NCBI GenBank assembly: GCA_017453365.1
Contig: JAFTKH010000007.1
Coordinates: 1 to 52,608 of the forward strand
Source: Clostridia bacterium
GTDB taxonomy: Bacteria > Bacillota > Clostridia > Oscillospirales > CAG-272
Length of the DNA: 52,608 nt
Direction: 5' to 3'
This document shows, piece by piece, positions 4,554-24,289 of the stretch; position 1 is the stretch's first letter, and each line of letters opens with the position of its first letter. The position numbers and the translations under genes are program-made. The notes under the pieces are model-generated. The model did not search any database, had not been told where the DNA came from, and saw only the letters and a program-made list of their open reading frames with translations.

Positions 4554-4746
4554 TAAAAAGGTGCTGTCGCATTTAGGCATAAGCGAAATAAAAAAAGGAA
4601 GAGGCCTCTAATGAAAAAGCCTCTTCTAAATCCGTTAGGACCGAGGTTTAGTCTCATTCAGAATTTGCTAAATCCGTATTTTTCACGGCACTTCTTCGTT
4701 TTTGCCATGATTTTATTGAATTCTTAATGAGATTTGAACCTTTTGT
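4554..4746. other. Intergenic region between convergent operons
   Basis: 193 bases between mtnN (+) and the helicase (-). It holds one clear hairpin (described separately) and AT-rich sequence. The GTGCTGTCGCATT stretch just after the mtnN stop resembles the end of a small repeat or insertion remnant, but no partner end is visible. No coding frame is supported. Confidence 0.5.
4588..4626 (-). terminator. Probable intrinsic terminator, minus strand
   Basis: Eight-base-pair stem GAAGAGGC (4598-4605) / GCCTCTTC (4619-4626) with a 13-base loop. Read on the minus strand it is followed by CC and seven U. It lies about 120 bases past the helicase stop. On the plus strand there is no U-run, so it is unlikely to end the hpt operon efficiently. 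Confidence 0.65.
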
Positions 4747-7122: not shown

Positions 7123-7146
7123 AGCCTCACCCCCTTTGTTTATGCT

Positions 7147-7175
7147 ATTTTATCATAAAAAGCAGTGCTTGTCAA
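7147..7175 (-). promoter_or_regulatory. Sigma-A promoter of the helicase gene
   Basis: On the minus strand: TTGACA (7175-7170), 17 bases, TAAAAT (7152-7147), close to consensus. It sits between the end of the capsid cassette and the helicase start. No terminator is seen between 7203 and this promoter, so cassette transcripts could read through into the helicase gene. Confidence 0.85.
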
Positions 7176-7202
7176 CCGATGTCGGGACGTTATGATGAGC
7201 GG

Positions 7203-8024
7203 TCAGCTGCGAAGAAAGGCGTCGATGAGCCGAGTCTTCGTGTCGAGCCAGAGCGGAAGCTCCTCTTTCGCATATCTGTAGCCCTCCGCATAGCCGCGAA
7301 GACCGATTATCGGGAGTGCCGAGAGCTTGAGAATGCTCTCGATGATGAACTCGCGCGTCATACCCTCCTTTGCACCCAGCATAAGCGATACTGTGAATAT
7401 CATACAGACCGTCGTGGGGATAAGCTTTAAAATAAGCCGCAAAAGCTTACGTCCCTCGGGATTTGAAAGCTCCGAGCGATGCTCGAAGCGTTCCTTTGAT
7501 AAAAGCTGCTTCGGGGTTATCGCGACGGGCTTCATTTTCTTTGCCTTGCCGAATATCCGCGCAGCCCTCTTCGACGGCCTCGCACCGCCGAGGTAGGCCT
7601 CGTAATCCGCTGCGGAGTAGCCGAAGCCGAACAGGTAGCTCCTACGCCTGAAGGCGAGCTCTTCCTCGGAGTAGGATGAGAGAAACTCGCGGAGCCTCGT
7701 TATATCCGCGCCCGAGAGGCGCTCCTTCGCTTTTTTGTAGCTCTCCTCGCTCCGCCTGTATTCCTCGCTCTCACGCCCGAGCTTTTCCCCCGCGTCCTCG
7801 AGGGAAAAGTAGATAATATACGACGCGAGAAGCATAACGAGAACCGTAGTCGTAAAGCTCGCCGCACGGAAGTCGAGGAAGCCTATCTCGGTGAAGGTAA
7901 CGAGAGTTACCACAACACCCGTTATGAAGGCCACGGTCTTTCCCACGTTTTCAAGAAGGAGAGAGTAGCCACGCTTCATAGCGGCACCCGTGTCGAGTAA
8001 AGACGCATCAAAGCTGTTCTTCAT
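7203..8024 (-). CDS. Cassette membrane protein, four predicted TM segments
   Basis: Not recognised. The 273-aa protein has two hydrophobic segments near the N-terminus (about 28-46 and 55-73), a long charged, helix-rich cytoplasmic-looking region (about 75-195), and two more hydrophobic segments (about 202-220 and 232-248). Its start overlaps the previous gene by 17 bases behind a GGAGGCAGGA site, so it belongs to the same transcript as the capsid genes and is the last gene of that cassette. No endolysin or transport motif is visible. A holin-like role is possible but the size is unusual. Confidence 0.7.
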   Translation of the reverse strand: MKNSFDASLLDTGAAMKRGYSLLLENVGKTVAFITGVVVTLVTFTEIGFLDFRAASFTTTVLVMLLASYIIYFSLEDAGEKLGRESEEYRRSEESYKKAKERLSGADITRLREFLSSYSEEELAFRRRSYLFGFGYSAADYEAYLGGARPSKRAARIFGKAKKMKPVAITPKQLLSKERFEHRSELSNPEGRKLLRLILKLIPTTVCMIFTVSLMLGAKEGMTREFIIESILKLSALPIIGLRGYAEGYRYAKEELPLWLDTKTRLIDAFLRS

Positions 8025-8385
8025 TCCTGCCTCCGTATCTCGCCGCCAGCTTGAAGAAAACAGCTCCGAGCAGGTTGCCTATAAATCCCGCGAAGGATAT
8101 TACGGTCATCTCGTATGCTATATTCTCAAGGACGAAAAAGCACAAAAACATAATAAGCCACATAGAGTAGCTCGCCCCGGAGCTTAAAATCCTCTTCACA
8201 AACTTGATAAGCGGGACGTGAGCCAAAAGGCATAAAAGAAGCGTAAAGCCCGAGGCTATCTTAACACTCTCGCCGCCTATCCACAGCGGGAAAAACGAAA
8301 GTATTGCCAAAAGAGGGGGCAGGGTGCAAAGGAGCATACCAACGGAATAGAATAAAACCTTAAGCTTAAGATTTGCTGTCTTCAT
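8008..8385 (-). CDS. Small cassette membrane protein
   Basis: Not recognised. 125 aa, mostly hydrophobic, with about four candidate membrane segments (about 9-33, 39-60, 72-92, 95-115) and a charged end RYGGRNEEQL. The gene overlaps its upstream neighbour by 20 bases and its downstream neighbour by 17, an arrangement typical of co-expressed phage genes. Position after the structural genes is where phage lysis genes are often found, but no holin signature is evident. Confidence 0.7.
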   Translation of the reverse strand: MKTANLKLKVLFYSVGMLLCTLPPLLAILSFFPLWIGGESVKIASGFTLLLCLLAHVPLIKFVKRILSSGASYSMWLIMFLCFFVLENIAYEMTVISFAGFIGNLLGAVFFKLAARYGGRNEEQL

Positions 8386-9046
8386 TTTCGGAGAGCGCCT
8401 CCTTCATCCTCGCGACGCTCTCGCCGACGAGCTCCTTTTGAAACTGCGGTATCGACGAGGACATAAAGATATCGTAGAGCAGGTCTATCTGCGTCGTCAA
8501 AACGGCGGTGAGCTTCGCCCTGTCGAGTGACCGTTCCTCTGCCGCCGAGAGTGAGTCGGAGAGCTCGTTAAGACTCCCCGTAAGTGAGGAAAGGGCTGCC
8601 TCGGCAGCACCCAGCCTCTCGGTAACGGCGTTGTTCAGCTCGCGCGATATAAGCTCCCCGTCCTCTGCTTTTTTCTTCACCTCGCCGACAACTCCGGAAA
8701 GCGCCGAGAGCGAGGCCTTAACCAGAGGGAGAAGACCGCGCTTGTAGCAGAATGCGAGCACCAGCGAGCCGATGAAGGTGAGCGTCCCGAGAATTTCGGG
8801 AAGATAGCCGCGGAAGGCCGCGAAGACCGCAGTGAAGAAATTGCCGCCATCGGTACTCTCTGCACCGCCATCGGCATTCTCTGCGCCGCCATCGGCACTC
8901 TCTGTACCGTCATCGGCATTCTCTGCGCCTACCGAAGGCTCAACCGCCTGTGTGGGGGACTCCCCCGCGCCCTCTGCTCCCGCGAGCACGGAAAGGCCGA
9001 GGGAGAGAATAAATGTAAGTAAGATGATAGCTGTTATTTTTTTCAT
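8366..9046 (-). CDS. Secreted or anchored protein with Gly/Asp repeats and coiled coil
   Basis: Not recognised. 226 aa: a signal peptide (about 1-22, ending AGA), a low-complexity acidic linker of four 7-residue repeats (GGAENAD type, about 40-67), one membrane segment (about 82-103), then a helical, coiled-coil-like tail (about 110-226) rich in Glu, Leu and Ser. The linker is encoded by four copies of a 21-base tandem repeat. An AAAGGA site precedes the ATG. The layout places the linker outside and the coiled coil on the other side of the membrane. It is the first of three consecutive membrane proteins ending the cassette. Confidence 0.7.
   Translation of the reverse strand: MKKITAIILLTFILSLGLSVLAGAEGAGESPTQAVEPSVGAENADDGTESADGGAENADGGAESTDGGNFFTAVFAAFRGYLPEILGTLTFIGSLVLAFCYKRGLLPLVKASLSALSGVVGEVKKKAEDGELISRELNNAVTERLGAAEAALSSLTGSLNELSDSLSAAEERSLDRAKLTAVLTTQIDLLYDIFMSSSIPQFQKELVGESVARMKEALSENEDSKS
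8846..8929. repeat. 21-base tandem repeat, four copies
   Basis: Four in-frame units of 21 bases (8846-8866, 8867-8887, 8888-8908, 8909-8929) with a few substitutions each, of the form GYCATCGGYAYTCTCTGYRCC. They encode the acidic Gly/Asp linker of the membrane protein above. In-frame length means copy number can change without breaking the gene. Confidence 0.9.
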
Positions 9047-9063
9047 AGCTTTTCCTTTCGAAA

Positions 9064-9453
9064 TCAGAATATTATACGGCCCTCGATAAGCCTTAAGAGC
9101 TCGTCGAGCCGCCCCTCGAGCTTCTTGATTTTTTCCTCGCTTTTCTCGCTTCGCTCGAGAAGTCGCCTTATGCTGGAGTCGGGAGTGGGCAGGGCGAATA
9201 CTCTGCCCGAGAGCTTTCGCACAGGCTCAAGAACGGCCGAGGCCGTGCCCTCGAGAGTAGGGGTGTAGTCGCCGTCGGAGAGACGCTCGAGATTGAAGCG
9301 AGCCTCACCGTCCGCGAGCCTTTTTGTAATGCCTCCGAGCGTTACATACCCACCCGTGTCGGGCTTTATGGCTACGGTGAGCAGGAGCCCATCGCCGGAG
9401 CACTCTCTTATCTCTCCGAAGCCATCGCGAATTTTGTAAACTATTCTTGTCAT
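9064..9453 (-). CDS. Small cassette protein with C-terminal coiled coil
   Basis: Not recognised. 129 aa from the ATG at 9453; a GTG at 9462 overlapping the previous stop is an alternative start. The N-terminal two-thirds looks like a beta-rich domain (RIVYKIRDG, LLLTVAIKPDTGGYVTLGG), and residues about 95-129 form a heptad-like helix (RRLLERSEKSEEKIKKLEG). A small beta domain with a trimerising coil is common in phage fibre and baseplate accessory proteins, so that role is a guess. It is five bases from its upstream neighbour. Confidence 0.65.
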   Translation of the reverse strand: MTRIVYKIRDGFGEIRECSGDGLLLTVAIKPDTGGYVTLGGITKRLADGEARFNLERLSDGDYTPTLEGTASAVLEPVRKLSGRVFALPTPDSSIRRLLERSEKSEEKIKKLEGRLDELLRLIEGRIIF

Positions 9454-9458
9454 ATATT

Positions 9459-9836
9459 TCACCCGAGCCTCGACTTTATTTCGTCGAGCTCCTCTCTCAT
9501 TTCTCCGAGATAGACGGCGAGGCTCTCGCCGAATACGGTCATATAATTCGCGAAGGCGCCGCTCACGATATCTCCGAAGAGCGAGGCGAGCGTATGGGAG
9601 TCGCTGATTCCCGTCTTCATAGCCGCGGCTATAGAGGCCTCCGGCTCTGCTGCGATATCGTCCAAAAGAGAGTTGTAATGCTCGATTATATAAATGGAGA
9701 GTCTGTCGAACGCTTCCTTCATATCCCTTGAGGTGTAGCCCTTGCCACCGTAGGAGGATGAGCTTGTCGGCCTCGTCGGGAGAGAGGACACCTTAAGCGA
9801 TTTTACGTCGGTGTCGAGTATTTTTTGAGATAACAT
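9459..9836 (-). CDS. Small cassette protein of unknown function
   Basis: Not recognised. 125 aa from the ATG at 9836, chosen because AAAGGAAG lies five bases upstream; a TTG 15 bases earlier would sit inside that site. The N-terminus is Ser/Thr-rich and looks disordered (to about 35), followed by helices with a final charged segment EMREELDEIKSRLG. It lies between the gp10-like gene and the beta/coiled-coil gene, so it is probably an accessory structural protein (inference from position only). Confidence 0.65.
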   Translation of the reverse strand: MLSQKILDTDVKSLKVSSLPTRPTSSSSYGGKGYTSRDMKEAFDRLSIYIIEHYNSLLDDIAAEPEASIAAAMKTGISDSHTLASLFGDIVSGAFANYMTVFGESLAVYLGEMREELDEIKSRLG

Positions 9837-9871
9837 ATTTCTTCCTTTCAAGAATTACTTTTGTTTCGGAT

Positions 9872-12565
9872 TTACCTTTTTTTGATATTGCCCTTAACGG
9901 TGTAGCGGTAGCTTATCGAGAGTATGCCGATTGGCGAGTGGGGAGAGTCGCAGTAGATGGAAATTTGCTTCTCGACCCAGTCCTTTTCCCTTTCACGGAA
10001 GGGAATGGTTGTGTACTCCGTGTGGTCGAAGGAGAGGGCAGAGAAGTCGAGGCTCGAAAAGTCTAGTCCACCGCCCGTGAAGCTTGCTATCTCCTTGTAG
10101 CCTGTCTTGTCCGTACCGACCTCGAGGTGCATTTTGTTACCGGGGTAGCTCTTGCATTTTACGACGAGCGAGTTTTTCACCGTGTTCTTTGCCAGGTGGG
10201 GAATGTCGCAGTCGTCGAATTTAGTCCTTATGCCGTATCTTGGCGTGTGACGGTCGAAGTAGTAGAAATCCTGGTGTATCCTCGTGCCCATACGCTCACG
10301 GTACTCCTCTATATCGAACTCACTGTTAAGAAGGAGTGAGTCGGGCGGTACTCCGCGCTTGTCGTTGTTGAATACGCACAGCTCGCCGCGGGCAGTGCCG
10401 AAGAGCAGAAGCTCACCGCAGGTGGCTGCCGTCACCGCAGGAGAGAAGACTCCGCCGCTCCATTCATCCGTGGGATATGCGGTGTAACGCGTGCCGTTCT
10501 CCTCGGTGTAGTATATCATATCGCCGTTCAAATAATCGGAATATACAGTCTCCTTGACCTCGCTGTCGGGCTCGGGGTGTATGCTGTAGCCGTCGGGCGC
10601 TGTCGAATCGTATCGAAAGACCCTTGCATCTTCTTTATAGCATCCGATGCCCGATAGAATGAACCATTCGTACTCCGTGCCTCCCGTTTCGTGACGGAAG
10701 GTAGCGCGGGAGTCTGCAAGATAAATATTACCCTCCGTGCATACCGCGAGATACCCGAGCCATACGGATAGCGACGCCGCCGACAGGTCTTCCTTCAATA
10801 GGTCGAAATTGACGTTATGCGAGCGGCAGACGATGTTCCTTTCGTAGCTTATATTTTTTTCCGCGAGAGCCGAGAGGCCGCCGGGTGAGAGAAAAACAGG
10901 GTCGTCGAGGAAGGATACCGACGGGCCGTAGGCCGAAACGCCCGAATGCACGTAGGCTATGGGATATGCCTTCGGTACCACGCTGTCGCCCGTTTCTGTC
11001 GGAGTGTGGTAGAAAATGCTTCCTCCGCCGTCGTCGCCCCCCTTGAATACCGCGAGCGAGTCGCGCACGGGGAGCAGAGAGGCTACGGGATATGCGCCGA
11101 GACCGTCGTTGAAGTAATTCATAGCGCCGACGTAAAGAGGATTGTTTTCACCCGTGGAGTCACGCTCGGTAAAGAATACGGTATTGGGTAAGCTCGGATT
11201 TCCGCTGTAGAATATACGGCCGTCGAAGAGCACCGCGACGGTGCACCTCGTTATAGCGCTAAAGCCGCCTTTCCGTTTTCCGATAACGCTGTCGAGAAAG
11301 CTTTTTCTTTTTTTCTCCGTAGACGTCTGCGAGGTGGAGAGAGTCCCCTTTATCACTACCGTTTTTCCGAGCGCGTCCCACGTCTCGTTAAAGGTAATGC
11401 GGAGCGAGGTCGGCCTGCCCGACTCGGTTATCGTTTCGTAGTCCAGCGCCTCACCGTCAAGGTATACGCCGTCGATAGCAGCTGCGTCTGAGCTTATAGG
11501 CAGGGAAACGTAGATGCTCGTGTATTTCTCGTTGCAAAAGACGGTGTGATTGACGAAGGCCGTCTGCTCATCGATTTCATAAAATTCGTTCGCCGTTCCC
11601 GCATAATGTACGGTTATACCCGACCTGGCATCAAAGGCGGAGTCCGAAACGTAGGAAACTCCTCTGCCAAGATAAATGTCTTTAAGCTCTGCACAGCTCG
11701 AGAGGGCGTAGCTGCCGATAGACGTTACAGTGTCGGGTATCACGACGAAGGTCATACCGGAGCAGCCTTGGAAGGCATTGTTTGCTATGCTCCTTATGCC
11801 GTTTGCCATTATCACCCCGGTTATTCCGTATTGGTCTTGCAGAGCGCTTTCGCTTATCTCGCGTACCTCGTAGGCCGTGCCGGCTATATCGGCGAATTTA
11901 GGAATGTAAACCGTACCCGTGTAGCCCGTTTTTATGCCCGACACGGCGCACCAGAGCTTGTCGGGGTCGGTAACCGTATAGACGAGCTCGGGAGTTCCGT
12001 AGCTGTATCTCGAGGGGTCGGCAATAGTGTATTTCTCGCAAAAGCTGTTCGTAAGCAGATTTCTCTGCTCGTACTCCTCGCCGTTTATGTAGGTCGTCGG
12101 CACGTATATCCTCGAGTCGCCCTCGGTCAGAGTGTGAAAATTGCCGTAGCAGTCGAGCGAGTGTAGCGACTCACCGTCAAGAAGATAAAATACGTCCCCG
12201 TATGCAAAGCCCGAGCTCCTCGAATCAGCTACCGTTCCGTTGGCGGTAAGAGTTCCCAGCGAGTCGAGATAATCTCTGCTGAAGGCAAAAATGCTGTCCT
12301 CTGCGTGTACGATTATCCTGTTCGGGTCTATCGACGTCTTGTGATGGTATATCCTGTGTATCCTCCTGTCGAAGGAATAAAGACGGCGGAAGCCCGGAAT
12401 ACTCTCGATAACTCCGCCGCCGTCTCCGTCGTAATCCCTGTACATATTTTCGGAATAGGCGAGCCGCGAGCGGCTGATGTTGCCGCCGTCCCTGTCGACG
12501 CCTCTGAAGCTGCCGAGGGACACGGTGTATTCTGTTTTTTTGCTGATGGTTTTCCTGCTCGCCAT
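9872..12565 (-). CDS. P22 gp10-like tail/DNA-stabilisation protein with inserted LRR_5 domain
   Basis: Largest protein of the cassette (897 aa). The N-terminus has the pattern seen in many podovirus-type stabiliser or tail-hub proteins: FRGVD (20-24), then RLAYSENMYRDYDG (34-47) and a proline/glycine-containing IPGFRRL (56-62). Beta-rich sequence suggestive of a propeller follows. A BspA-like leucine-rich-repeat block is inserted at about 205-325 (repeats such as ISESAL, IRSIANNAFQGCSG, VTSIGSYALSSCAEL). It starts one base after the gp4-like gene stop. In P22, gp4 and gp10 close the portal after packaging. The assignment rests on N-terminal pattern, size and gene order. The LRR insert is unusual and is discussed as a finding. 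Confidence 0.7.
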   Translation of the reverse strand: MASRKTISKKTEYTVSLGSFRGVDRDGGNISRSRLAYSENMYRDYDGDGGGVIESIPGFRRLYSFDRRIHRIYHHKTSIDPNRIIVHAEDSIFAFSRDYLDSLGTLTANGTVADSRSSGFAYGDVFYLLDGESLHSLDCYGNFHTLTEGDSRIYVPTTYINGEEYEQRNLLTNSFCEKYTIADPSRYSYGTPELVYTVTDPDKLWCAVSGIKTGYTGTVYIPKFADIAGTAYEVREISESALQDQYGITGVIMANGIRSIANNAFQGCSGMTFVVIPDTVTSIGSYALSSCAELKDIYLGRGVSYVSDSAFDARSGITVHYAGTANEFYEIDEQTAFVNHTVFCNEKYTSIYVSLPISSDAAAIDGVYLDGEALDYETITESGRPTSLRITFNETWDALGKTVVIKGTLSTSQTSTEKKRKSFLDSVIGKRKGGFSAITRCTVAVLFDGRIFYSGNPSLPNTVFFTERDSTGENNPLYVGAMNYFNDGLGAYPVASLLPVRDSLAVFKGGDDGGGSIFYHTPTETGDSVVPKAYPIAYVHSGVSAYGPSVSFLDDPVFLSPGGLSALAEKNISYERNIVCRSHNVNFDLLKEDLSAASLSVWLGYLAVCTEGNIYLADSRATFRHETGGTEYEWFILSGIGCYKEDARVFRYDSTAPDGYSIHPEPDSEVKETVYSDYLNGDMIYYTEENGTRYTAYPTDEWSGGVFSPAVTAATCGELLLFGTARGELCVFNNDKRGVPPDSLLLNSEFDIEEYRERMGTRIHQDFYYFDRHTPRYGIRTKFDDCDIPHLAKNTVKNSLVVKCKSYPGNKMHLEVGTDKTGYKEIASFTGGGLDFSSLDFSALSFDHTEYTTIPFREREKDWVEKQISIYCDSPHSPIGILSISYRYTVKGNIKKR

Positions 12566-12566
12566 T

Positions 12567-13403
12567 TTATGCCCACCCGTTGGTTATATAGTCGGTCGAT
12601 ATCTCTCTGTTATGATAGCGGAGCACGCCGCTTAGGGACTCGCGGTACAGAGCCATATAATACTCCGCCTTGTCACTGTCGTCGTCGAGCCACATAAACG
12701 AGGCGGTAAGCAGGGGAAGAAGCGGCTCCATATCCCTCGGTACGTCAATCGTCGCGTCGGGGGAGAAAAGAGAAAGCGTTCCCGGCGCGCATCTGTACGT
12801 AAGATATATCTCGCCGCGAAAGCCGTCGGGAAGAAGCAGAAGCCCCTCACGAAGCGACACGCCCTCGATGCTCCTGCCGGCACTGTCGCGCGGCAGAGCG
12901 GAGAAGGAAAGAAAATCAGGCAGCATCGCCGCTACGTCAATGCTTTCTCTGCCGTCGTAAATCGCGACGTCCGATACCTCGCCGCTCACCCGCGACTCGA
13001 AGGACGCGAGGTGATAAACGGTGAAGGAATATTCACCGAAAAAGGTTATACTCGCCTCCGACGAAAGAAAGCCGCGGTGCTCCGACATATTGCCGACGAG
13101 CTCGTGCGTTTCGCTCTTGTATCCGTCCTCTACGGTAAAAAAGCCCGTGCCCGAGCTTTTGAAGGAGTAGGCGGTGCCGGGGAGCTTAAAGGTCGCTTCC
13201 TTGCCGCCCGTGTGACGGTATTTCGCTACGTAGGAGAGCACGCTCGGGGCCTCGTAGGAGATAACGGCATCCCGTGTAACCGCCCTGTCGGAATAGATTA
13301 GCGCGAGCGCACGGTTGGCCGCCGAGATGAAAATATCCTCATCTCCGACCTCACCCTCGAAGCCGAGCGCAGCCACGTCTTGCATAAGCTGATTAAGTGT
13401 CAT
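12567..13403 (-). CDS. P22 gp4-like head completion / portal adaptor protein
   Basis: 278 aa. The N-terminus has MTLNQLMQDVAALGFEGEV and ANRALALIYSDRAV, a helical start typical of adaptor proteins that ring the portal. The C-terminus has the conserved-looking block VPRDMEPLLPLLTASFMWLDDDSDKAEYYMALYRE (described here by its key residues: Pro-rich start, W at about 241, then DKAEYYMALY), which resembles gp4-type connectors. The middle is beta-rich. It is 75 bases from the capsid gene with a strong hairpin between, and one base before the gp10-like gene. Family assignment is from pattern memory and could be another connector type. Confidence 0.68.
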   Translation of the reverse strand: MTLNQLMQDVAALGFEGEVGDEDIFISAANRALALIYSDRAVTRDAVISYEAPSVLSYVAKYRHTGGKEATFKLPGTAYSFKSSGTGFFTVEDGYKSETHELVGNMSEHRGFLSSEASITFFGEYSFTVYHLASFESRVSGEVSDVAIYDGRESIDVAAMLPDFLSFSALPRDSAGRSIEGVSLREGLLLLPDGFRGEIYLTYRCAPGTLSLFSPDATIDVPRDMEPLLPLLTASFMWLDDDSDKAEYYMALYRESLSGVLRYHNREISTDYITNGWA

Positions 13404-13428
13404 ATTGTTAGCTCCTTTATCTTATTTT

Positions 13429-13461
13429 GGGCCGCCGCAGAAAAAGGCCGCGCGGCGGCCC
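13429..13461. other. Strong GC hairpin between capsid and connector genes
   Basis: Perfect 10-base-pair stem GGGCCGCCGC (13429-13438) / GCGGCGGCCC (13452-13461) with a 13-base loop, in the only real gap of the structural gene block. On the coding (minus) strand it is followed by AAAATAAG, not a U-run, so it is more likely an mRNA 3'-stabilising or processing hairpin than a full terminator. Confidence 0.7.
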
Positions 13462-13478
13462 GCCCGCGAAGGGGAAAA

Positions 13479-14534
13479 TTAAATCGCGTCAGCGTTTGTG
13501 ACGGCCGAGGAGGAGTCAACCGCGAGCAGAATGTGCTTGTAGGTGCCGAAGCCTACACCGAAGCGGCATCTTCCGTTCCAAATATAGTTGCCCGTGTGGT
13601 TGTCCACCCAGTTGGTAATGGTTAGAGGAACACGGTTGAAGAACATATTGCCGGAGAGGTTCTTGTTAGCCTCGCTCGACATAATCATAAGACGGTCGTC
13701 CTCGGTCTGCCAGCTGGGCATAATCACGATATTCCAGTTTCCGTACTGAAGGTTGATGTCGTTGTAGCCGTTGCCGAGAGCGCCCTCCGAGCCGCATACC
13801 TTCTTGGCTATAGCCTCGGCCGCGGGTCTGTTTCCGGGGAGAACGATAGTGTCGGCAGTATAGCCGAGCACCTCGCCGTTTTCGTCCTTCATATTACGGA
13901 GCTTGACCGCGAGCTCGGAGAGAGCTTCCTCGAAAACGGACGCCGAATAGGTTCTGTCGGTGCCGTATTTGAAGATATCGCCCCAGAAGAAATTGGACTG
14001 ATTTCCGCTCTCGCCGGAGCCTCCGCCCCATATATGGCTGTTGTGGAAAAGGGGAAGATTGTCGGGTGTCGAAAGGTCAATCGACGCGCCTGCGAAGGTC
14101 GCAGTTTTGGAGGTTCCCGACGCGAGCGCCTGCTCGCATATCTTGTGGATAGTCTTGTAGTACGCTCTTGTGAAGTTCTCGGCTCTGCGCTTCGCATCAA
14201 CCGCGATGCCGTATCCCGCATCCTCCATCATTTCGGCGGTTATGATGAACTCCTTCATAAACTGAATGTGCTCGATAAACTTCTTGTAGGTCTCGCTGAT
14301 GCTGTCGCCCTCTGCGGCGTTGCCCTCCTCGGCGTATTTGAAAACGCCGAACTCGTTCTGACCCACTATCGTCTCGCCGAACTTGTTGCTCTTTTCAACA
14401 TTGAAAAGCCAGTCGCAGATGCCGCCCTTCTTGGTGAGCAGGTCGCTCTGGTGCTCGATGACCATTTTTATCGGGGTTTCGAGCTTGCCTATAGCGGCGT
14501 TTGTGTACCCCGAGCTTTTAGAATAAATTACCAT
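13479..14534 (-). CDS. Phage major capsid protein
   Basis: 351 aa, HK97-fold-type major head protein, closest in pattern to the Mu gpT group. Features: an N-terminal segment without an evident prohead-protease delta domain, a long amphipathic stretch FKYAEEGNAAEGDSISETY (about 65-83) as the likely E-loop/spine region, DTIVLPGNRPAAEAIAKKV (about 230-248) typical of the A domain, and a C-terminal VDNHTGNYIWNGRCRFGVGF block (about 307-326). It overlaps the decoration-like gene by seven bases. It is the most confident structural protein here along with the terminase. Confidence 0.82.
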   Translation of the reverse strand: MVIYSKSSGYTNAAIGKLETPIKMVIEHQSDLLTKKGGICDWLFNVEKSNKFGETIVGQNEFGVFKYAEEGNAAEGDSISETYKKFIEHIQFMKEFIITAEMMEDAGYGIAVDAKRRAENFTRAYYKTIHKICEQALASGTSKTATFAGASIDLSTPDNLPLFHNSHIWGGGSGESGNQSNFFWGDIFKYGTDRTYSASVFEEALSELAVKLRNMKDENGEVLGYTADTIVLPGNRPAAEAIAKKVCGSEGALGNGYNDINLQYGNWNIVIMPSWQTEDDRLMIMSSEANKNLSGNMFFNRVPLTITNWVDNHTGNYIWNGRCRFGVGFGTYKHILLAVDSSSAVTNADAI

Positions 14535-14941
14535 TCTTCATATTCTCTCTTTCTGTCAAATTTTACGTATACGTATTTGGGATTGTCGCATAGGCCGACA
14601 ATCCTTCCCGAGCCCTCTTCGTTTATCTCGACGGCGTCGGTAAGCTCGCCCGTCGATGAAATACCGACAGGTCTTCCGAGCTCGACCGGCTCGTCCCCGA
14701 CGATTTCCACCTTAAATACCATATTATCGGTTACCTCGTAGCAGAGATAGGGCTCGTTTCCCGTAGCCTTGTAGTCCTTCGCCACAATGAAGCGCGGATA
14801 ATAGCCGGCCGCCGTGATTGTGTTGTCGATACGGTCGACCGCAACTCCCGCCTTGGGGATAAAGTTGCAGCCAACTCTCGAGAACCTTTCGTATTTCGGG
14901 GCGTTTGAGCCCGCATAATTGATTTTTACAAGTCTGAACAT
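14528..14941 (-). CDS. Putative capsid decoration or stabilising protein
   Basis: 137 aa, beta-rich: MFRLVKINYAGSNAPKYERF, FIPKAGVAVDRIDNTITAAG, YLCYEVTDNMVFKVEIVGDEPVELG, ending in charged RKREYEEW. Size, beta content, and position directly before the major capsid gene (7-base overlap) match small head-decoration proteins of tailed phages. There is no catalytic motif, and the name rests on context. It could instead be a head fibre base. Confidence 0.62.
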   Translation of the reverse strand: MFRLVKINYAGSNAPKYERFSRVGCNFIPKAGVAVDRIDNTITAAGYYPRFIVAKDYKATGNEPYLCYEVTDNMVFKVEIVGDEPVELGRPVGISSTGELTDAVEINEEGSGRIVGLCDNPKYVYVKFDRKREYEEW

Positions 14942-14954
14942 TTTCTTACCTTTC

Positions 14955-15419
14955 TTATTTTGTGACGCGGCGCCACAGCCTCTGAATCTCGGAGTCGCTC
15001 ATACCGTAGAACAGCTCGCGCGCACCCTCGAGCTCCGAGCGCGGCATAGCGCCGCCCGCGTTGCCTGCCTGCCTCGGCACTCCGCCCACGAGGTGCGAGC
15101 GGGTGTCGGCAGGGGCCTTTCCCCTGGCCGCGAGGTATGCCTCGGTGGGAGTAAGACCCATATCGCGAAGCGCCGCATAGCGTAGCGGATTTTTTATTTC
15201 CGTGAGGCTCCTTGTGCTCGAAAGCTCGGGAAACTCGCGCCGAAGCTCCGCCATATCCCGCTCCATAAGCTCCTCGTAGTTAACGCCGTCCTCGGTCCGG
15301 GGAGCCGCATTTTCCTCTGCCGAGGGAGCGCCGTCACGGACGTCCCCCTCCGTAAGCTCGGGAGCCTCCGCCTCTTCCGCGGCGGGAGCCGCCGTTACCC
15401 CGTCTTTTTCGTCCTGCAT
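14955..15419 (-). CDS. Putative scaffolding protein
   Basis: 154 aa. The first 50 residues are acidic and Ala/Glu/Pro-rich, apparently disordered; the middle has a short helix-rich domain (LRYAALRDMGLTPTEAYLAARG, about 79-100); the C-terminus ends with a basic helix SEIQRLWRRVTK. An acidic extended body with a basic capsid-binding helix is characteristic of scaffolds, and the position between portal and capsid genes fits. The ATG at 15419 overlaps the stop of the 49-aa gene (TGATG); the GTG one codon earlier is less likely. Confidence 0.65.
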   Translation of the reverse strand: MQDEKDGVTAAPAAEEAEAPELTEGDVRDGAPSAEENAAPRTEDGVNYEELMERDMAELRREFPELSSTRSLTEIKNPLRYAALRDMGLTPTEAYLAARGKAPADTRSHLVGGVPRQAGNAGGAMPRSELEGARELFYGMSDSEIQRLWRRVTK

Positions 15420-15568
15420 CACTTGTTACCTCCGCGAAGGTCGCCGCGGCCGCTTATTTTAGTACCGCGGGGCTCACCCTTCGGCAGCGGAGAGGGAGCC
15501 GTAATTTTGCCAAAACCGTTTGTACGGTAGACGCTTGACTTGTCTTTTGTTTCGTTTGCTCTTTTCAT
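15419..15568 (-). CDS. 49-residue basic protein of the capsid cassette
   Basis: A short gene between the internal helical protein and the scaffold-like gene. The product has 49 residues beginning MKRANETKDK and ending LRGGNK, rich in Lys, Arg and Gly, with no hydrophobic segment. Support: AAGGAAGG lies eight bases before the ATG, the frame is open across the whole gap, and the stop TGA overlaps the next ATG (TGATG), as with its neighbours. It is conserved only by this logic; function is unknown, possibly a nucleic-acid-binding or assembly peptide. Confidence 0.65.
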   Translation of the reverse strand: MKRANETKDKSSVYRTNGFGKITAPSPLPKGEPRGTKISGRGDLRGGNK

Positions 15569-15596
15569 CGTTAATTCCTTCCTTGTTATTTATCAG

Positions 15597-16328
15597 TTAC
15601 TTAAAGCTCGAGGTTGTTCTGTCAGCCTCTTCCTCAAGCTCGCGGAGAGCATCGTGGCTCGCCTCGTATTCCTTGCCGAGAAGCTTTTCCGCCTCGCTCT
15701 TAACGTAGGCCGTATCCCCTTCGTCAAGGCCGTATTTTTTCGCGAGCTCCGCCGCACTCTCGGCATCGAGCCTGAAGGTTATTACCTTTTCGATAAGGTC
15801 GGCGATTATCTTGTCCTTTACCGCGCTGTAGATTCCGACGGAAACCTCAAGCGCACGCTCGTCGGAAAGACCCGCGCCGAGAGCGTATTCATAGGCACGC
15901 TCGGTGTTTATTATTCCGTTTTTGATGAGCTCGGCTCGAACACTCTTCATAAGCGAGCTTTGCTCGCGGTTGTAGTCTTCGAGATAGTCCGCGTAGCCCA
16001 GCACCGTCCTCGCCTCGGCGAGATTTCTCTTGTCGATAAGCTCCGCTATGCGCTTTTCGTAGGTCTCCCCCGACAGCTCTCTTTGCCTCTCGGCATATCC
16101 CGAGCGCGAAAGCCCCGAGGAAAAAATCGCCTCGGCATTCCTTCCGTAGTCTGCCCGAGCCTTCATAGCCTCAACGTAGGCGTCCTCGACGCCTCGGGAA
16201 AACTCCGCACCGTAGTCCTCCGCGTTTTTTGCGCGGTACTCGTCGAAGCTGTCCTCGCTGTTGGTTATTTTTTTGTTTTTAATGTAGTTTTCGAGAAATT
16301 TCTCGAGTGAGCTTTGGCTCTTACTCAT
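15597..16328 (-). CDS. Helical, charged protein between portal and scaffold genes
   Basis: Not recognised. 243 aa starting MSKSQSSLEKFLENY at the ATG 16328, which overlaps the portal stop by eight bases behind a GGAGGTGACAGAT site; longer frames run into the portal gene. The sequence is almost entirely helical and charged, with no Cys and no membrane segment, and repeats of the kind ...AEAIF, ...AYVEAMKARADYG, ...LDAESAAELAKKYGLDEGD. Position suggests an internal head or ejection protein (as with P22 gp7/gp16/gp20) or a portal accessory protein. This is inference. Confidence 0.62.
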   Translation of the reverse strand: MSKSQSSLEKFLENYIKNKKITNSEDSFDEYRAKNAEDYGAEFSRGVEDAYVEAMKARADYGRNAEAIFSSGLSRSGYAERQRELSGETYEKRIAELIDKRNLAEARTVLGYADYLEDYNREQSSLMKSVRAELIKNGIINTERAYEYALGAGLSDERALEVSVGIYSAVKDKIIADLIEKVITFRLDAESAAELAKKYGLDEGDTAYVKSEAEKLLGKEYEASHDALRELEEEADRTTSSFK

Positions 16329-18087
16329 ATCTGTCACCTCCGGCTTCCAGCTCCTCCATAAAGTATTCGACGTTCTCCCTTGCGTGCGGGTAATGTGCAC
16401 GCTCCTGACACTGCCAATAGCGGAGAAGAGTTCTCGGCGATGCCGGGTCGCCCAACGTTCCCGATTTTAGATTTTCGAGATTTCTCTCCCAGAGCGACTC
16501 GCGCTGATACTCGCTTCCGCCGTCGAGGTCGACGGAGAAAAGATAATCGTCGTCGTAATAATATTCCCCGCGCCCGAGGTCGTACTCTATGAAGTCGTAG
16601 CGGTTGAACTCCTCGTAATGTATTCTGCCGTATGCGTCCTTGTAGGATAAGTGCCTCGGCTCGTCGGCGAAGGCGAGATAAAAATGAAATATAAGCCTGT
16701 CTATGTCCGCATAAGCGGTGTGCTTCATCTTTTTCTTCGACTCGAGTCTTCCCGAGGCCTGGCTTATCCTTAATTGCCTTGCAACACCCGACTCGCCGCT
16801 ATAGCTGTCTATGCCCTGATAAGCGTCCGAAATGCCTATTACGCGCTTCGCGTGGTCGTAGAGTCTTTCCGCCTCGGCTATATCCTGTGATACGTCGGGG
16901 GTCGTGTCAACCTTTCCGTACTGCGCCACGCTCTCGCCGGGCTTCATCTTTATTACCTGACCGAAGACGGAATTGTTGAGAGTCACTCTCGCGTCCTCCG
17001 GTACGACGGGGGTTATTCCCGCGCGGAGAAGCTTTTTGAGTATCCTTGACTCTATCTTGTTTATCGCCTGCTGCTCGGGCCTTATGTATTCGCAGTCCGA
17101 CTGACCGAAAAGCGAGCGCTCGCGAGAGGTGTTCTTCCTTATTACTATAGGAAAAAGCTTCGGGGTGTAGTAGGGTATCTCGGTCGAGCCGAGGCTTATT
17201 CGCTCGCCGTCGAGCTTCGGAGATACGGACGGTATTTTGACCCCGCTCCTTAAAATCATCTCTTCCTCGAGCTTCTCGTATTTCACCTCGGTCAGCACGC
17301 TGCGCCGACCTCGGCAGCCGCAATCGGTAACCGAGCCGCAAACCGAGCAGACCGTAGCCTTTCTCATATAATATCTCGGCATATCCTCGAGCACAGCATC
17401 GCCCGAGAACACGTACCTTCCTATCTCGCCGTCCTCATCCTTGTAGAAGCATACGAGCATAGTCACGGTGTCGCCGCCCGGCATATCGGTGTCGTATTCG
17501 TATTCGCACTCGGCGAGCGACAGCTCCTCGTCCGAAAGGCCGTATCTCCGCCCCAGCTCCGCGCGCGTCGTCGTGAAGCGCATAAAGAGATATTCCATAT
17601 CCTCTACCGAATATATCCCCGGCTGCGGAATGAAATCCATAGGGGAAAGGCAGTGTACGCGAACGCCGCCGACCTCTCCCGCGTGCGTGATGGAATTGTC
17701 CCAATCGACATACCATACGCTGCCGCCGTATATGTAGGTATACCGCTCGTCCATATCGTTGAGCTCGTCGAAGGGGAGCCTGTCTCGGATAGAGCGGCAG
17801 AGCCTCTCGATAGCTTCGGCATTTCTGCCCCTCCGCTCGCTGTAGGAGGCCGCGTCCGTCTTCGGCTGCGGTATCTCCGACGATATCTGGCTCTCCACTA
17901 TCTCATAGGTAATGTTGCGGACTGTGATAGCGTCCTCCTCCGAGCCGTCGAGCTCGGGGCTTCCCTTGTACTGACTCATATAACGGCCGAGCGATGAATA
18001 GAGCTCCGAGGCCGCCTTTTCAGAGGCGTTGTAGAGCCCCTTGAAAAACTCGAGCCTTAAAGCCTTCGTTTTGTTTTCTGTTCTCAC
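16321..18087 (-). CDS. Phage portal protein
   Basis: 588 aa, the dodecameric ring through which DNA enters and leaves the head. It starts with GTG (18087) overlapping the terminase stop (GTGA). Portal-type features are the N-terminal helical region (1-50), WYVDWDNSI (125-133), the SPMDFIPQPGIYSVEDMEYLFMR strand-loop (148-170), and the stem helix region FGQSDCEYIRPEQQAINKIESRILKK (327-352) with a GESVA loop. An insert with C247, C250, C256 and C258 looks like a zinc knuckle, which is unusual for portals. Gene order TerS-TerL-portal supports the call. Confidence 0.8.
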   Translation of the reverse strand: MRTENKTKALRLEFFKGLYNASEKAASELYSSLGRYMSQYKGSPELDGSEEDAITVRNITYEIVESQISSEIPQPKTDAASYSERRGRNAEAIERLCRSIRDRLPFDELNDMDERYTYIYGGSVWYVDWDNSITHAGEVGGVRVHCLSPMDFIPQPGIYSVEDMEYLFMRFTTTRAELGRRYGLSDEELSLAECEYEYDTDMPGGDTVTMLVCFYKDEDGEIGRYVFSGDAVLEDMPRYYMRKATVCSVCGSVTDCGCRGRRSVLTEVKYEKLEEEMILRSGVKIPSVSPKLDGERISLGSTEIPYYTPKLFPIVIRKNTSRERSLFGQSDCEYIRPEQQAINKIESRILKKLLRAGITPVVPEDARVTLNNSVFGQVIKMKPGESVAQYGKVDTTPDVSQDIAEAERLYDHAKRVIGISDAYQGIDSYSGESGVARQLRISQASGRLESKKKMKHTAYADIDRLIFHFYLAFADEPRHLSYKDAYGRIHYEEFNRYDFIEYDLGRGEYYYDDDYLFSVDLDGGSEYQRESLWERNLENLKSGTLGDPASPRTLLRYWQCQERAHYPHARENVEYFMEELEAGGDRYE

Positions 18088-19448
18088 AGTGGTTCTCCGT
18101 ATTTTTTCTTTAGATATTTTTTGCCCGCCTCGTCAGCCGCTCGGTAGTCCTCCCACATATCCGGGGTCCATAAGCACCTCCTGCCCGCCTCCTCCTCGGT
18201 GCGCGGACGTGTGTGAAAGATGGCGAAGCCGCGCAGAGCGTCGGGGGCGTGTGTTATTTCGTGGGGCTCTGTCGCACAGTCGGTAGGACGCACCTTGTCT
18301 ATCCGAAGCGCGGGAAGGCACTTGATAAGCTCGCGGCAGGTCTTGAATACCTTTAGCCTCGGGGGCCCGCTCCTCGCGGCGAGAAGCTCCTTTACAGCGA
18401 GCCAACCGCACTCTCTGTCGTTCGAGGTCTTCGTGAAATTCACCCCGAACTCGGAGAAGAGGCTGGCCTTCGTCTTTCCCGTTTCCTGACTGCGCGACCA
18501 CATATCGGGCGGAGCGAGCGTCGCGTAGATGTCCTCGCCCTTCGGTGTCCGCTTGAGTATTTCTTCGGCCGCGCGGCTTATCGCGAGATTGCTCTGGCAA
18601 AATTCGCGGTATACGTACGACGTGCCGTCCGGCGCTATAGCTATCCACAGAACGGCGAGCCTGTCCAGACCGTAGTCCAGCGTCCTGTACCTGCGCCAGC
18701 CCTCGGGTATCTCAAAGGGGTCGACGGTGTGTACGTCCTCCCTCCACTCGTCGAAATACTGACCCTCGAAAATGTTCCAGTCGCCAAGGAGAAGCGCACG
18801 CCGCTCTCTTTCGGGCAGCGCCTCGAGCCTGCGCCTGTAGTCGGGGTCGTCACGCACGAGAAAGGCGTTGTCGTCGAGCAGGGAAGGGATAAATATTCTC
18901 GACATACCGTCGCCTCCGCTGAACACCGTACCGCGGGGTGCGGGGTCGACGAACCTTGCCTTTACCCAGGTGTGCCCCACACCGCCCGGGTTGGTCGAGG
19001 ATTTTATCTGCTTCGGGTATCCGTTTACACCCCTGACCCGCGATATGAGATAGACGTACTGCATCTCCGTAAAATGCGTCAGCTCGTCGAACCTTATAAC
19101 GTCGTATTCCGCGCTCTGATACTGATACACGTCCCCCTCCGCCGCGCAGTAGCCGAAGTCGATACACGACCCGTTCTTGAACCTGCCGACGTGAGATGAG
19201 GAATTGAAGGTGAAAATCTCGCGCGGATAGAGCTCCTGCGCCGTCCTTATCAGCGACTTGTCGAGCTCCGAGAACGTACGCCTGAGTATCAGCTGCTTGG
19301 ATTTCGGATATTTGAGAGCGAAAAGCAGAGCGTCCACCATCTGTCCGTAGGACTTGCCGCCTCCGGCCGCTCCGCCGAAAAGCACCTCGGTTGCCGCAGC
19401 ATCTATGAAAAGCTTTTGCTTCTTCGTCACGGTAAGACCGAGTCTCAT
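18084..19448 (-). CDS. terL: Phage terminase large subunit (ATPase-nuclease)
   Basis: 454 aa DNA-packaging motor and nuclease. Walker A GGAAGGGKS at 25-33, Walker B VIRFDE at 117-122, coupling motif SSTNPGG at 150-156. The C-terminal RNase-H-like nuclease keeps its acidic residues: D258 in TLDYG, D315 in APPDMW and D403 in HAPDALR. All are intact, so the motor looks functional. It starts with an ATG overlapping the small-subunit stop (ATGA) and ends overlapping the portal start. Confidence 0.93.
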   Translation of the reverse strand: MRLGLTVTKKQKLFIDAAATEVLFGGAAGGGKSYGQMVDALLFALKYPKSKQLILRRTFSELDKSLIRTAQELYPREIFTFNSSSHVGRFKNGSCIDFGYCAAEGDVYQYQSAEYDVIRFDELTHFTEMQYVYLISRVRGVNGYPKQIKSSTNPGGVGHTWVKARFVDPAPRGTVFSGGDGMSRIFIPSLLDDNAFLVRDDPDYRRRLEALPERERRALLLGDWNIFEGQYFDEWREDVHTVDPFEIPEGWRRYRTLDYGLDRLAVLWIAIAPDGTSYVYREFCQSNLAISRAAEEILKRTPKGEDIYATLAPPDMWSRSQETGKTKASLFSEFGVNFTKTSNDRECGWLAVKELLAARSGPPRLKVFKTCRELIKCLPALRIDKVRPTDCATEPHEITHAPDALRGFAIFHTRPRTEEEAGRRCLWTPDMWEDYRAADEAGKKYLKKKYGEPL

Positions 19449-19777
19449 TCGACCACCTCGAGCTTCACGTCGAGGGTGCTGCCCGCATCCGTAGCCTCTC
19501 CCATTCCGTATTCAACCGAGAGCAGGAATTTTGTCAAGGATGAGTCGAACCGTTTGCATAGCGCATTGTCAATAAGATAATCTCTTCGGATTTCGCTGCA
19601 TTCACGGTAAGCGCGCTCAAACTCTCTGTGCTTCCTAAAGCTCTCGATATCGGCGACAGTTGCCCCGATACTCCCCGCAAACTTCGCAATGCTGGGAGCG
19701 CCGATATCAGAATAGGAACGGAAGAAGGTGTACATTCGAAGCGGCAGACCCCTGTTGTATTTTCTGCCTTTACTCAT
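19445..19777 (-). CDS. terS: Putative terminase small subunit
   Basis: 110 aa, basic N-terminus (MSKGRKYNRGLPLRMYTFF), a helix-turn-helix-like segment (GAPSIAKFAGSIGATVADIESFRKH, about 27-51), then helices and a short tail. This size and layout, immediately before terL with a 4-base overlap, is typical of small terminase subunits that recognise packaging sites. A GGGAGAG site lies four bases before the ATG. It is the first gene of the cassette. Confidence 0.75.
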   Translation of the reverse strand: MSKGRKYNRGLPLRMYTFFRSYSDIGAPSIAKFAGSIGATVADIESFRKHREFERAYRECSEIRRDYLIDNALCKRFDSSLTKFLLSVEYGMGEATDAGSTLDVKLEVVE

Positions 19778-19796
19778 ACGTCTCTCCCTTCCGCCG

Positions 19797-19830
19797 CCGA
19801 GAGTGCCGTGCCTAGGATACGGCCCCTCGG
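19797..19830 (-). other. Nested hairpin in the leader of terS
   Basis: Outer arms CCGAG (19797-19801) / CTCGG (19826-19830) and inner arms GCCGT (19805-19809) / ACGGC (19819-19823), with the palindrome CCTAGG in the loop (19811-19816). It lies about 20 bases before the terS start, where packaging-site (pac/cos) or RNA control elements are often found in phages. Confidence 0.55.
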
Positions 19831-19839
19831 GACAAGACC

Positions 19840-19845
19840 ATTATA
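19840..19845 (-). promoter_or_regulatory. Candidate promoter -10 for the capsid cassette
   Basis: Perfect TATAAT on the minus strand, about 65 bases before terS, in sequence GAGCTATAATGG. No good -35 lies 16-18 bases upstream (CTTACT or TTACTT at best), so it is either weak, needs an activator, or is not used. Confidence 0.4.
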
Positions 19846-19933
19846 GCTCTTGCCGGCCTCAAAGTAAGTATACCTCGGAGCCAAAAAACAGGGTGAAAGC
19901 AAGCGCCGTGTTTGTGAGAAATCAACAAAGGAG

Positions 19934-19984
19934 AAAAAAGAGCAAGGATGAAAGGATAAAACCTTCTGTTCTTGCTCTTGTTTT
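19934..19984. terminator. Bidirectional terminator-like hairpin
   Basis: Stem AAGAGCAAG (19938-19946) / CTTGCTCTT (19971-19979). Minus-strand reading gives ...CTTGCTCTTTTTTCTCC, plus-strand reading gives ...CTTGCTCTTGTTTTTC. It sits upstream of the cassette on the cassette strand, insulating it from the GH operon or acting as an attenuator. Confidence 0.6.
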
Positions 19985-20063
19985 TCTATGTATATATTCA
20001 TTTTTTAAAATCTCGGTGCGCCCTCTGTGTTAACGGTAACACGCATAGGCTTTCGGCTTAAAC

Positions 20064-20104
20064 AAAAAAGCAATACCGATTTAGCATTCTGCCGTCGGTA
20101 TTGC
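20064..20104 (-). terminator. Intrinsic terminator of the MurNAc operon
   Basis: Ten-base-pair stem GCAATACCGA (20070-20079) / TCGGTATTGC (20095-20104), followed on the minus strand by TTTTTTGTTT. It lies 13 bases past the GH stop codon. Confidence 0.9.
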
Positions 20105-20116
20105 CTTGGTTTTTAT

Positions 20117-22180: not shown

Positions 22181-23001
22181 TTTTTCTTCCTTCCTGCCTT
22201 TTGAGCTTCGGCAGCGAGCGGAATGCTCCAGTCGTGCTCCTCGAGCAGGCGCTCTGCCTCCTTTTCGCCAACACCCGTAATATCCATTACTATAGTTATC
22301 ATTCTGTGGCGGAGCTTAACGTTTGTAGGCTTCAGGTTTACCATAAGGTTTTCGTACACCTTTCCCGACTTTATCATAGTACAGGTCGAGAGCATATTGA
22401 GAACGAGCTTCTGCGCCGTTCCCGCCTTCATACGTGTAGAGCCCGTAACAACCTCGGCACCCGTGTCGGTGACTATCGCGTAGTCGACGATGTCGGTAAT
22501 GCCCGAGCCTGCGTTCGAGGTAATACCGACGGTAAGACAGCCGATATCCCGCGCTTTTTGTAAAGCAGAGTTTACATAAGCCGCTCCGCCCGAGGCCGAA
22601 ATACCGACGAGCGTATCATTTTTATTGGGCGTAAGAGCCAAAAAGTCGATAATACCCATCTCGCCGCTATCCTCAGCGCCCTCGCTCGCCCGCGTCATAG
22701 CGGAAGTACCGCCTGCGATTATCGCACGGACAAGGTCGTAGGAGACACCGTAGGTGGGAGGGCACTCTGCCGCATCCTGTACCGCGAGTCTTCCGGAGGT
22801 TCCGCAGCCTATGTAGATAAGCCTGCCGCCCTGCGCCATTCTTTCCGTTATCGCGTCTATAGCCAGAGCTATAGTCGGGAGCACTGCCTCGACTGCGCGA
22901 ACGGCATTAAAGTTTTCTTCATTGATGACCGAGAGCATCGATACGGTATCCATTTTGTCGATATGCGTGGTCTTTGGGTTTCTCATTTCTGTCTTTTTCA
23001 T
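22177..23001 (-). CDS. murQ: N-acetylmuramic acid 6-phosphate etherase MurQ
   Basis: Removes the lactyl ether from MurNAc-6-phosphate, giving GlcNAc-6-phosphate and D-lactate in cell-wall recycling. The 274-aa protein has the SIS-domain pattern: MAQGGRLIYIGCGTSGRLAVQDAAECPPTYG (about 55-85), the EGAEDS loop with the catalytic-region glutamate, GISASGGAAYVNSAL, and the family signature GAEVVTGSTRMKAGTAQ. Slightly shorter than some homologues (about 300). Four-base overlaps link it to the kinase gene upstream and the hydrolase downstream, so all three are co-translated. Confidence 0.95.
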   Translation of the reverse strand: MKKTEMRNPKTTHIDKMDTVSMLSVINEENFNAVRAVEAVLPTIALAIDAITERMAQGGRLIYIGCGTSGRLAVQDAAECPPTYGVSYDLVRAIIAGGTSAMTRASEGAEDSGEMGIIDFLALTPNKNDTLVGISASGGAAYVNSALQKARDIGCLTVGITSNAGSGITDIVDYAIVTDTGAEVVTGSTRMKAGTAQKLVLNMLSTCTMIKSGKVYENLMVNLKPTNVKLRHRMITIVMDITGVGEKEAERLLEEHDWSIPLAAEAQKAGRKKK

Positions 23002-24170: not shown

Positions 24171-24204
24171 TGTAAAGCCTCCAAAAAAACAGCCGTTTTC
24201 TTTC

Positions 24205-24234
24205 ATTGTACTACAACTTGAAGTCTATTACAAT
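24205..24234 (-). promoter_or_regulatory. Promoter and overlapping inverted repeat of the MurNAc operon
   Basis: On the minus strand: TTGTAA (24233-24228), 17 bases, TACAAT (24210-24205). The two elements form an inverted repeat, ATTGTA (24205-24210) / TACAAT (24229-24234), covering the promoter, a natural operator for the HTH domain of the downstream gene. Confidence 0.65.
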
Positions 24235-24250
24235 AGTATTTTAGTTGTTT

Positions 24251-24289
24251 TTTTAAAAAATAAAATCAACCGACGGTTGACACCGTCGG
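24251..24289 (-). terminator. Intrinsic terminator of the ABC-F gene
   Basis: Stem CCGACGG (24270-24276) / CCGTCGG (24283-24289) with a 6-base loop; on the minus strand it is followed by TTGATTTTATTTTTT. It lies about 165 bases past the ABC-F stop and just before the MurNAc operon promoter. Confidence 0.85.

Follow-up and report, generated by a model that had tools for sequence, protein, structure and literature searches.

Within a 52,608-nucleotide stretch of a Clostridia bacterium genome (contig JAFTKH010000007.1; this whole stretch is called the window here), we analyzed a block of phage-type genes at positions 7203-19777. We conclude that this block is probably a phage late region that has been domesticated, is maintained by selection, and descends with the chromosome, and that it would encode a putative short-tailed DNA-packaging particle resembling a gene transfer agent (GTA). 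As judged from its genes, it most likely represents a podovirus-like GTA lineage, whose putative particles would carry host DNA between cells. Directly observed are intact genes in a conserved order, a fixed site within one clade, co-divergence with the host in seven of eight proteins, purifying selection, invariant terminase sites, and phage kin. An original prediction, made from the letters of the window alone, had proposed that the block is selected as a unit and had named a GTA-like domesticated particle among its hypotheses; genus-wide presence, gene order, flanks, host co-divergence, and purifying selection now support both points.

All open reading frames (ORFs) of the block are open and unbroken on the minus strand, in the predicted order, and comprise 14 clear genes and one ORF of 49 amino acids (aa) within 12.6 kb; the predicted total of fifteen genes is correct once the small ORF is counted. 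In scans against PHROGs and Pfam, genes for integrase, replication, repressor, or endolysin went unrecognized in the block, as had been predicted, and family scans of the block and its flanks did not find the integrase, replication, and regulatory genes expected of a functional temperate phage. The predicted absence of tape-measure and prohead-protease genes carries little weight, as short-tailed phages need no tape measure and a prohead protease also goes unrecognized in the phage relatives described below.

The recurrence of this block throughout the window's genus exceeds chance. A match to the major capsid protein (MCP) was present in 57/69 genomes of the genus, including 19/22 high-quality ones, and in most as a single copy. 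Loci were read in 46 of these 57 genomes (window included), with the remaining 11 left out; named loci L021-L027 partly repeat contigs of genomes with G handles (L021, for instance, is as long as G325:C8) and were counted once. Ten core genes, for the small and large terminases (TerS and TerL), portal, scaffold, MCP, adaptor, the gp10-like protein g10, and the membrane trio g226, g125, and g273, were complete in 39/46 loci, and several of the seven incomplete loci end at a contig edge. Gene order was identical in nearly all loci. The 49-aa ORF was detected upstream of the capsid gene in 15 of 47 genome-derived loci (tblastn, E ≤ 1e-3). Full-length MCPs of the genus are 57-80% identical, and the DinG helicases of the same genomes 37-53%. 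Outside this genus, two more genera of the sampled family, represented by G218 and G269, have divergent cassettes.

Trees point to inheritance with the host. They covered 35 genomes with RpoB, TerL, portal, and MCP, out of 48 with cassette loci (46 of the genus and 2 of other genera). The RpoB tree and that of TerL, portal, and MCP combined had 18/32 splits in common, against a mean of 0.25 and a maximum of 3 in 1000 trials with shuffled names, and their patristic distances correlated (r = 0.738 for all genomes and 0.605 for those of the genus), with 0/1000 permutations as high. When proteins were compared individually with RpoB in up to 33 genomes of the genus, seven of them correlated, each with 0/1000 permutations as high: TerL (r = 0.833), g273 (0.824), g125 (0.719), g10 (0.659), portal (0.642), g226 (0.581), and adaptor (0.466). 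The block is mainly inherited with the host, and the capsid gene, which is the exception considered below, has a separate history.

The genes are also under purifying selection. Nei-Gojobori estimates for 12 pairs, many with dS near saturation and some not computable, gave dN/dS below 1 in every computable case (MCP 0.03-0.16, TerL 0.05-0.16, portal 0.06-0.23), with the highest value, 0.59, in the tail-side gene g132; DinG gave 0.08-0.10 in three computable pairs. TerL residues K32, D121, E122, D258, D315, and D403 were unchanged in 42/42 TerLs of the genus. We take these residues to belong to the catalytic motifs, which the original prediction had rightly called intact. An ordinary defective prophage heading for loss might be suspected from the fact that integrase, replication, and lysis genes go unrecognized and that two loci have a short g10, but this is barely credible for a block with dN/dS < 1 in all genes and computable pairs, a full core in 39 of the loci read, a conserved site, and co-divergence with its host. 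Relaxed selection and broken genes, the features of a decayed prophage, were not found in the dN/dS, core-gene, and TerL-motif checks. We rejected a decayed prophage as a candidate on dN/dS, intact genes, synteny, and trees.

On the chromosome, the block is surrounded by host genes. A DinG/XPD-type helicase gene (4747-7122) forms its downstream flank, and three metabolic genes (20117-24206; GH42-like, MurNAc-6-P etherase-like, and BadF/ROK with a helix-turn-helix (HTH)) lie between TerS and an ABC-F ATPase gene (24456-26381) that is the upstream host flank in the clade; all are on the minus strand and were assigned with Pfam. Besides DinG itself, genes on that side encode a phosphoribosyltransferase, a radical SAM protein, a class II tRNA synthetase, LuxS, and purine nucleoside phosphorylase (PNP), and beyond ABC-F on the TerS side follow argininosuccinate lyase, a carbamoyltransferase, HisRS, and UvrD. 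Those flanking genes that were scanned with Pfam belonged to host-type families or gave no match, with no integrase or transposase among them. GC content at third codon positions is 0.683 in the block and 0.667 in 19 host genes, and pooled codon usage correlates with r = 0.963, so that both the ordinary flanks and the host-like codon use of the original prediction hold. No tRNA gene was found in the window, and a check for flanking att sites found no exact direct repeats longer than 12 bases between 4500-7300 and 19700-24600.

In the other loci of the genus, ABC-F lies upstream in 15/45 and DinG downstream in 18/45, and one or both adjoin the cassette in 25/45 species. PNP and LuxS come after DinG in many loci; in G324, DinG, PNP, and LuxS are further downstream, beyond two proteins with leucine-rich repeats (LRRs). 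The GH42 and etherase genes were not found beside other cassettes, and a BadF relative was found only in L142. DinG loci without an adjacent cassette (L187-L198, L242-L244) lacked the neighbors of the window, and no empty site could be defined among them. A 12-kb contig listed as viral in IMG/VR (L048) consists of a chromosomal ABC-F gene and a cassette of the window type.

Phage relatives with the same late gene order, g226-g125-g273 included, were identified in the genus of the window (G324:C28, G305:C55, and G325:C6) and in another genus (G192:C32), on contigs that may be incomplete phages. Between portal and scaffold they encode a giant protein of 3,352 aa in G324, 2,429 aa in G305, 2,442 aa in G325, and at least 2,008 aa in G192, where it is cut by the contig end. 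Several have a 427-861-aa homologue of the small post-portal protein g267 before the giant protein. The giant protein of G324 carries ART-PolyVal and PBECR3 domains. Their early genes include a replisome organizer and methyltransferases in G305 (read on L026, equal in length to G305:C55), a methyltransferase in G325, and an integrase in G192. According to PMC5512222, polyvalent proteins are probably co-injected with phage DNA, and absence of the giant polyvalent-type protein would be expected where an agent no longer takes over cells. Compared with the phages, the cassette lacks this protein and replication genes, and its nozzle LRR would be a gain on the cassette side. The original prediction had named the same block within a complete prophage as counter-evidence, and such counter-evidence is present in part: the same-genus phages form a separate lineage, with capsids 43-54% identical to the MCP of the window, and it is G192:C32, with a capsid 76% identical to that MCP, that comes near a cassette (G301). 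In an MCP tree without G192, the cassettes of the genus cluster with a support of 99, one fragmentary phage copy included.

Three further observations concern the phages. In the 40,568 bases of G192:C32 (L073, L207, L216), the giant ORF leaves both ends on the same strand, which suggests that the genome is a closed circle of roughly 40 kb. The tail genes of the phage relative in G324 include one for a reverse transcriptase (L199:9930-10982), possibly as part of a diversity-generating retroelement. The window's own genome contains a second, phage-like late region (L150, G000:C18), whose capsid is 53% identical and which encodes an LPD38 protein of 1022 aa.

Significant families were assigned to TerS (110 aa, 19445-19777; phrog_3064, 2.7e-8), TerL (454 aa, 18084-19448; phrog_979, 1.7e-49), the P22/SU10-like portal (588 aa, 16321-18087; phrog_156, 3.9e-33), and MCP (351 aa, 13479-14534; phrog_371, 3.1e-5), and for these the labels of the original prediction stand. 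The gp4-like head-tail adaptor (278 aa, 12567-13403) matched the Pfam family SU10_adaptor weakly, at an E of 0.013 that falls short of the cut-off, and most other proteins gave no match or an insignificant one. The scaffold-like (155 aa, 14955-15422) and decoration-like (137 aa, 14528-14941) proteins have no family match and are named by position, and g267 (15597-16400) has no significant family, its homologues having been found with a genus hidden Markov model (HMM). Between g267 and the scaffold gene lies the 49-aa ORF (15419-15568), which is kept in relatives and occupies what would otherwise be a longer gap ahead of the scaffold. The junctions, described earlier as continuous overlaps of 1-20 bases, proved to be mixed: short overlaps do occur, along with gaps, which are short except for one of 75 bases behind MCP and this longer pre-scaffold gap. 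Adaptors were present in 46/46 loci read, and HMMs detected the scaffold-like protein in 46/46 and the decoration-like protein in 29/46.

A predicted structure of MCP (mean pLDDT 76.6) matched HK97-fold capsids in the PDB, with the GTA capsid 6tb9 seventh among the matches. Predicted helices 11-20, 30-37, and 41-47 of TerS resemble an N-terminal HTH, with 30-37 and 41-47 as the HTH-like pair, and this region aligns with phage TerS; the best PDB match was P22 TerS, at a non-significant E of 2.5. An (F/Y)xxGN tail occurs in phage TerS L026, L028, L053, and L083 and is absent from cassettes and also from phage-side L073 and L081. We tried the absence of a DNA-binding domain from TerS as evidence that the block is a GTA and rejected it, as the cassette TerS has the HTH-like region. 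In a clade of 15 species, packaging and shell proteins were the best conserved and tail-side proteins the least, with median identities of 0.74 for TerL, 0.68 for MCP, 0.51 for DinG, 0.35 for g10, and 0.25 for g132. Carbon content per residue, an idea for a GTA signature, was lower in cassettes than in phages for TerL, MCP, g10, and adaptor and equal for portal (4-15 phage rows, uncorrected for GC), and was not used. A promoter scan, likewise not used as evidence, found 10 against 7.0 expected, and an Rfam scan of 6800-24600 gave no match. A GC-rich hairpin with a T-run just 3' of the capsid gene (13445-13461) is a possible attenuator (20 such sites against 13.7 expected).

The tail side begins with g10 (897 aa, 9872-12565), which we take to be the gp10-like nozzle or hub from its position and the gene order of P22. 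It contains an inserted BspA-type LRR domain (LRR_5, 3.7e-13, residues 236-317), which was found in the nozzles of 43/46 cassettes of the genus and in 4/4 loci of a second genus, g7, and was not found in those of five phages (G000:C18, G325, G324, G305, and G192); in the G305 phage, an LRR is on a separate neighboring protein. BspA-type repeats are surface-binding modules, and the nozzle LRR therefore fits recognition of recipient cells. A variable tail-fiber-like region starts with g130 (9459-9851; weak phrog_2533, E 0.0013), whose best match per genome ranges from 80 to 1119 aa. Next comes g132 (9064-9462), probably a coiled-coil tail accessory, with no match above the cut-off. As judged by hydrophobicity, g226 (8366-9046) has two hydrophobic segments (in 39/45 homologues) and a long helical tail, g125 (8008-8385) is a small membrane protein with four segments in 32/42, and g273 (7203-8024) is a membrane protein with two to four in 42/42.

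From these parts a course of events can be proposed. The host would turn the operon on in some cells, the scaffold and capsid proteins would assemble an HK97-type head, and TerL would pump host DNA through the portal. The adaptor, the LRR-bearing nozzle, and the variable fiber-like proteins may attach to sibling cells, release could occur via lysis, through g226/g125/g273 or genes elsewhere, and the particle would hand host DNA to a recipient cell. It is also conceivable, if unlikely, that a domesticated particle of this kind packages host DNA and kills relatives instead of delivering DNA, as PBSX does. Intact packaging genes, a variable fiber-like region, and a conserved LRR would suit such a targeting particle, and the same option is left open for FpGTA, a GTA of Faecalibacterium, in its authors' account (PMC12946183). 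However, no killing or immunity genes were recognized in the block. PBSX is contractile-tailed, whereas the head, portal, and nozzle here are of the short-tailed DNA injector type.

Several observations weigh against a vertically inherited, GTA-like cassette. The MCP match is missing in 12/69 genomes of the genus, including 3/22 high-quality ones, the membrane trio seems to have become incomplete in G308 and G353, nozzle genes are short in G314 and G334, and the LRR was undetected in the cassette nozzles of G218 and G269. No lysis gene was recognized in the block, and the particle and its packaged DNA are putative. Cassette TerS retains its HTH-like region, unlike known GTA TerS, which the sources at hand describe without one (PMC6854486, PMC11841831), and packaging may therefore be less random than in RcGTA. 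MCP alone was uncorrelated with RpoB (r = -0.171, 909/1000 permutations as high); exchange of capsid genes, or their uneven evolution, is probable. In G172:C14 (L125), the order is circularly permuted, with scaffold to g273 followed by TerS-TerL-portal. Finally, the integrase-bearing phage G192:C32 and the cassette of G301 are 87% identical in MCP, 84% in TerL, 55% in portal, and less than 30% in adaptor; the likeness in MCP and TerL shows that genes have moved between phage and cassette, in one direction or the other.

The last three points, and the existence of phage relatives within the same genus, would also suit a satellite with its own capsid genes, or a phage element that either enters one site again and again or recombines with resident copies. 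We regard this as improbable, since an integrase, an att-like repeat longer than 12 bases, and a tRNA were all not found, seven of eight proteins track RpoB, and the cassette and adjoining DinG of G307/G309 have similar dS where finite (DinG 1.26, portal 1.33, MCP 1.40, and TerL 0.88). The satellite among the original hypotheses is disfavored by the same missing integrase, by the fixed site in a large clade, and by mainly vertical descent, and a domesticated, GTA-like cassette is what we prefer.

Other capsid cassettes came to light in the same searches. A compact type (L090, L093, L094, L096-L099, L101, L106-L108, L110) lies in ordinary chromosomal surroundings and comprises genes for TerS, TerL, a g10-like protein of about 577 aa, portal, a scaffold-like protein, a 278-aa capsid of phrog_267, and a 129-aa adaptor-like protein. 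Its capsid is present, nearly always once, in 86/295 sampled genomes of the family (27/71 genera) and in 0/10 sampled genomes of the window's genus. Four genomes of genus g7 (L212-L215) contain a relative of the window cassette that is shorter, with TerS at one end and an LRR-bearing g10 at the other. Three human-faecal contigs of 7-11 kb labeled 'Bacteriophage sp.' (L239, L240, and L241; MT836833, MT837280, and MT836592) encode a portal or terminase as well as a capsid, and early genes were not seen on them.

We tentatively raise the possibility that many genera of the family rely on chromosomal capsid cassettes from at least three sources (the 15-gene window type, the shorter g7 type, and the compact 7-gene type in 27/71 genera), acquired through repeated domestication or swapping of phages. 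In the lineage of the window and in g7, the missing giant injected effector and the BspA-type LRR adhesin in the nozzle might then mark a dedicated machine for kin-directed DNA delivery that still exchanges capsid and terminase genes with phages. Few GTAs are known outside Alphaproteobacteria, and FpGTA, published in January 2026, is the first from a gut commensal according to its authors (PMC12946183). If the GTA reading is true, the block would add a separate podovirus-like GTA lineage, with phylogenetically supported vertical inheritance across a genus of gut Clostridia. The phage relatives allow the losses of domestication (giant effector, replication) and its gain (nozzle LRR) to be listed, and capsid, terminase, and portal are concrete markers by which host DNA packaged in gut viromes could be traced to its producer.

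Among known systems, the block resembles P22 and SU10 in its portal and adaptor families and, weakly, in TerS; these are infectious phages with full gene sets. It differs from its own phage relatives in that the giant protein, methyltransferases, replisome organizer, and integrase are on the phage side and the LRR nozzle is on the cassette side. A search of open-license literature found no published description of the window cassette. Kogay et al. (2022) define GTAs by six features in the text available (PMC9662315). Three of them are found here by sequence: proteins of the putative particle derived from Caudoviricetes (TerS, TerL, portal, and MCP by homology, and MCP also by its HK97 fold), full endogenization (a fixed clade site with host genes on both sides and no mobility gene found), and mostly vertical descent with host co-diversification, MCP being the exception; random host DNA, head capacity, and DNA delivery are experimental criteria. 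RcGTA-type GTAs of Alphaproteobacteria are described as endogenized, vertically inherited clusters with an HK97-type capsid (PMC9662315, PMC6854486). The window block shares these traits, including the 6tb9 match, and differs in being P22/SU10-like and in the HTH-like region of its TerS.

FpGTA I and II of Faecalibacterium are reported by Borodovich et al. (2026) in all twelve genomes that they examined, with 40-nm particles demonstrated to hold about 9 kb of DNA; FpGTA I is described as a 10.5-kb operon of ten ORFs, whose receptor-binding and lysis functions are encoded by another operon (PMC12946183). Two loci of similar order to FpGTA (L230 and L231) have TerLs that match the window-type model and portals that match the compact-type model, and the compact capsid model matches 20/197 genomes of the family of L034's genome, 3 of them strongly. 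Like the window block, FpGTA is presented by its authors as a compact operon that encodes podovirus-like proteins, among them TerS, TerL, portal, scaffold, and MCP, and, in that description, has no replication genes (PMC12946183). The window block differs in its 15 ORFs and 12.6 kb, which include nozzle, fiber-like, and membrane genes, and in its nozzle LRR. Among published systems, FpGTA is the closest, matched by description and gene order rather than by sequence.

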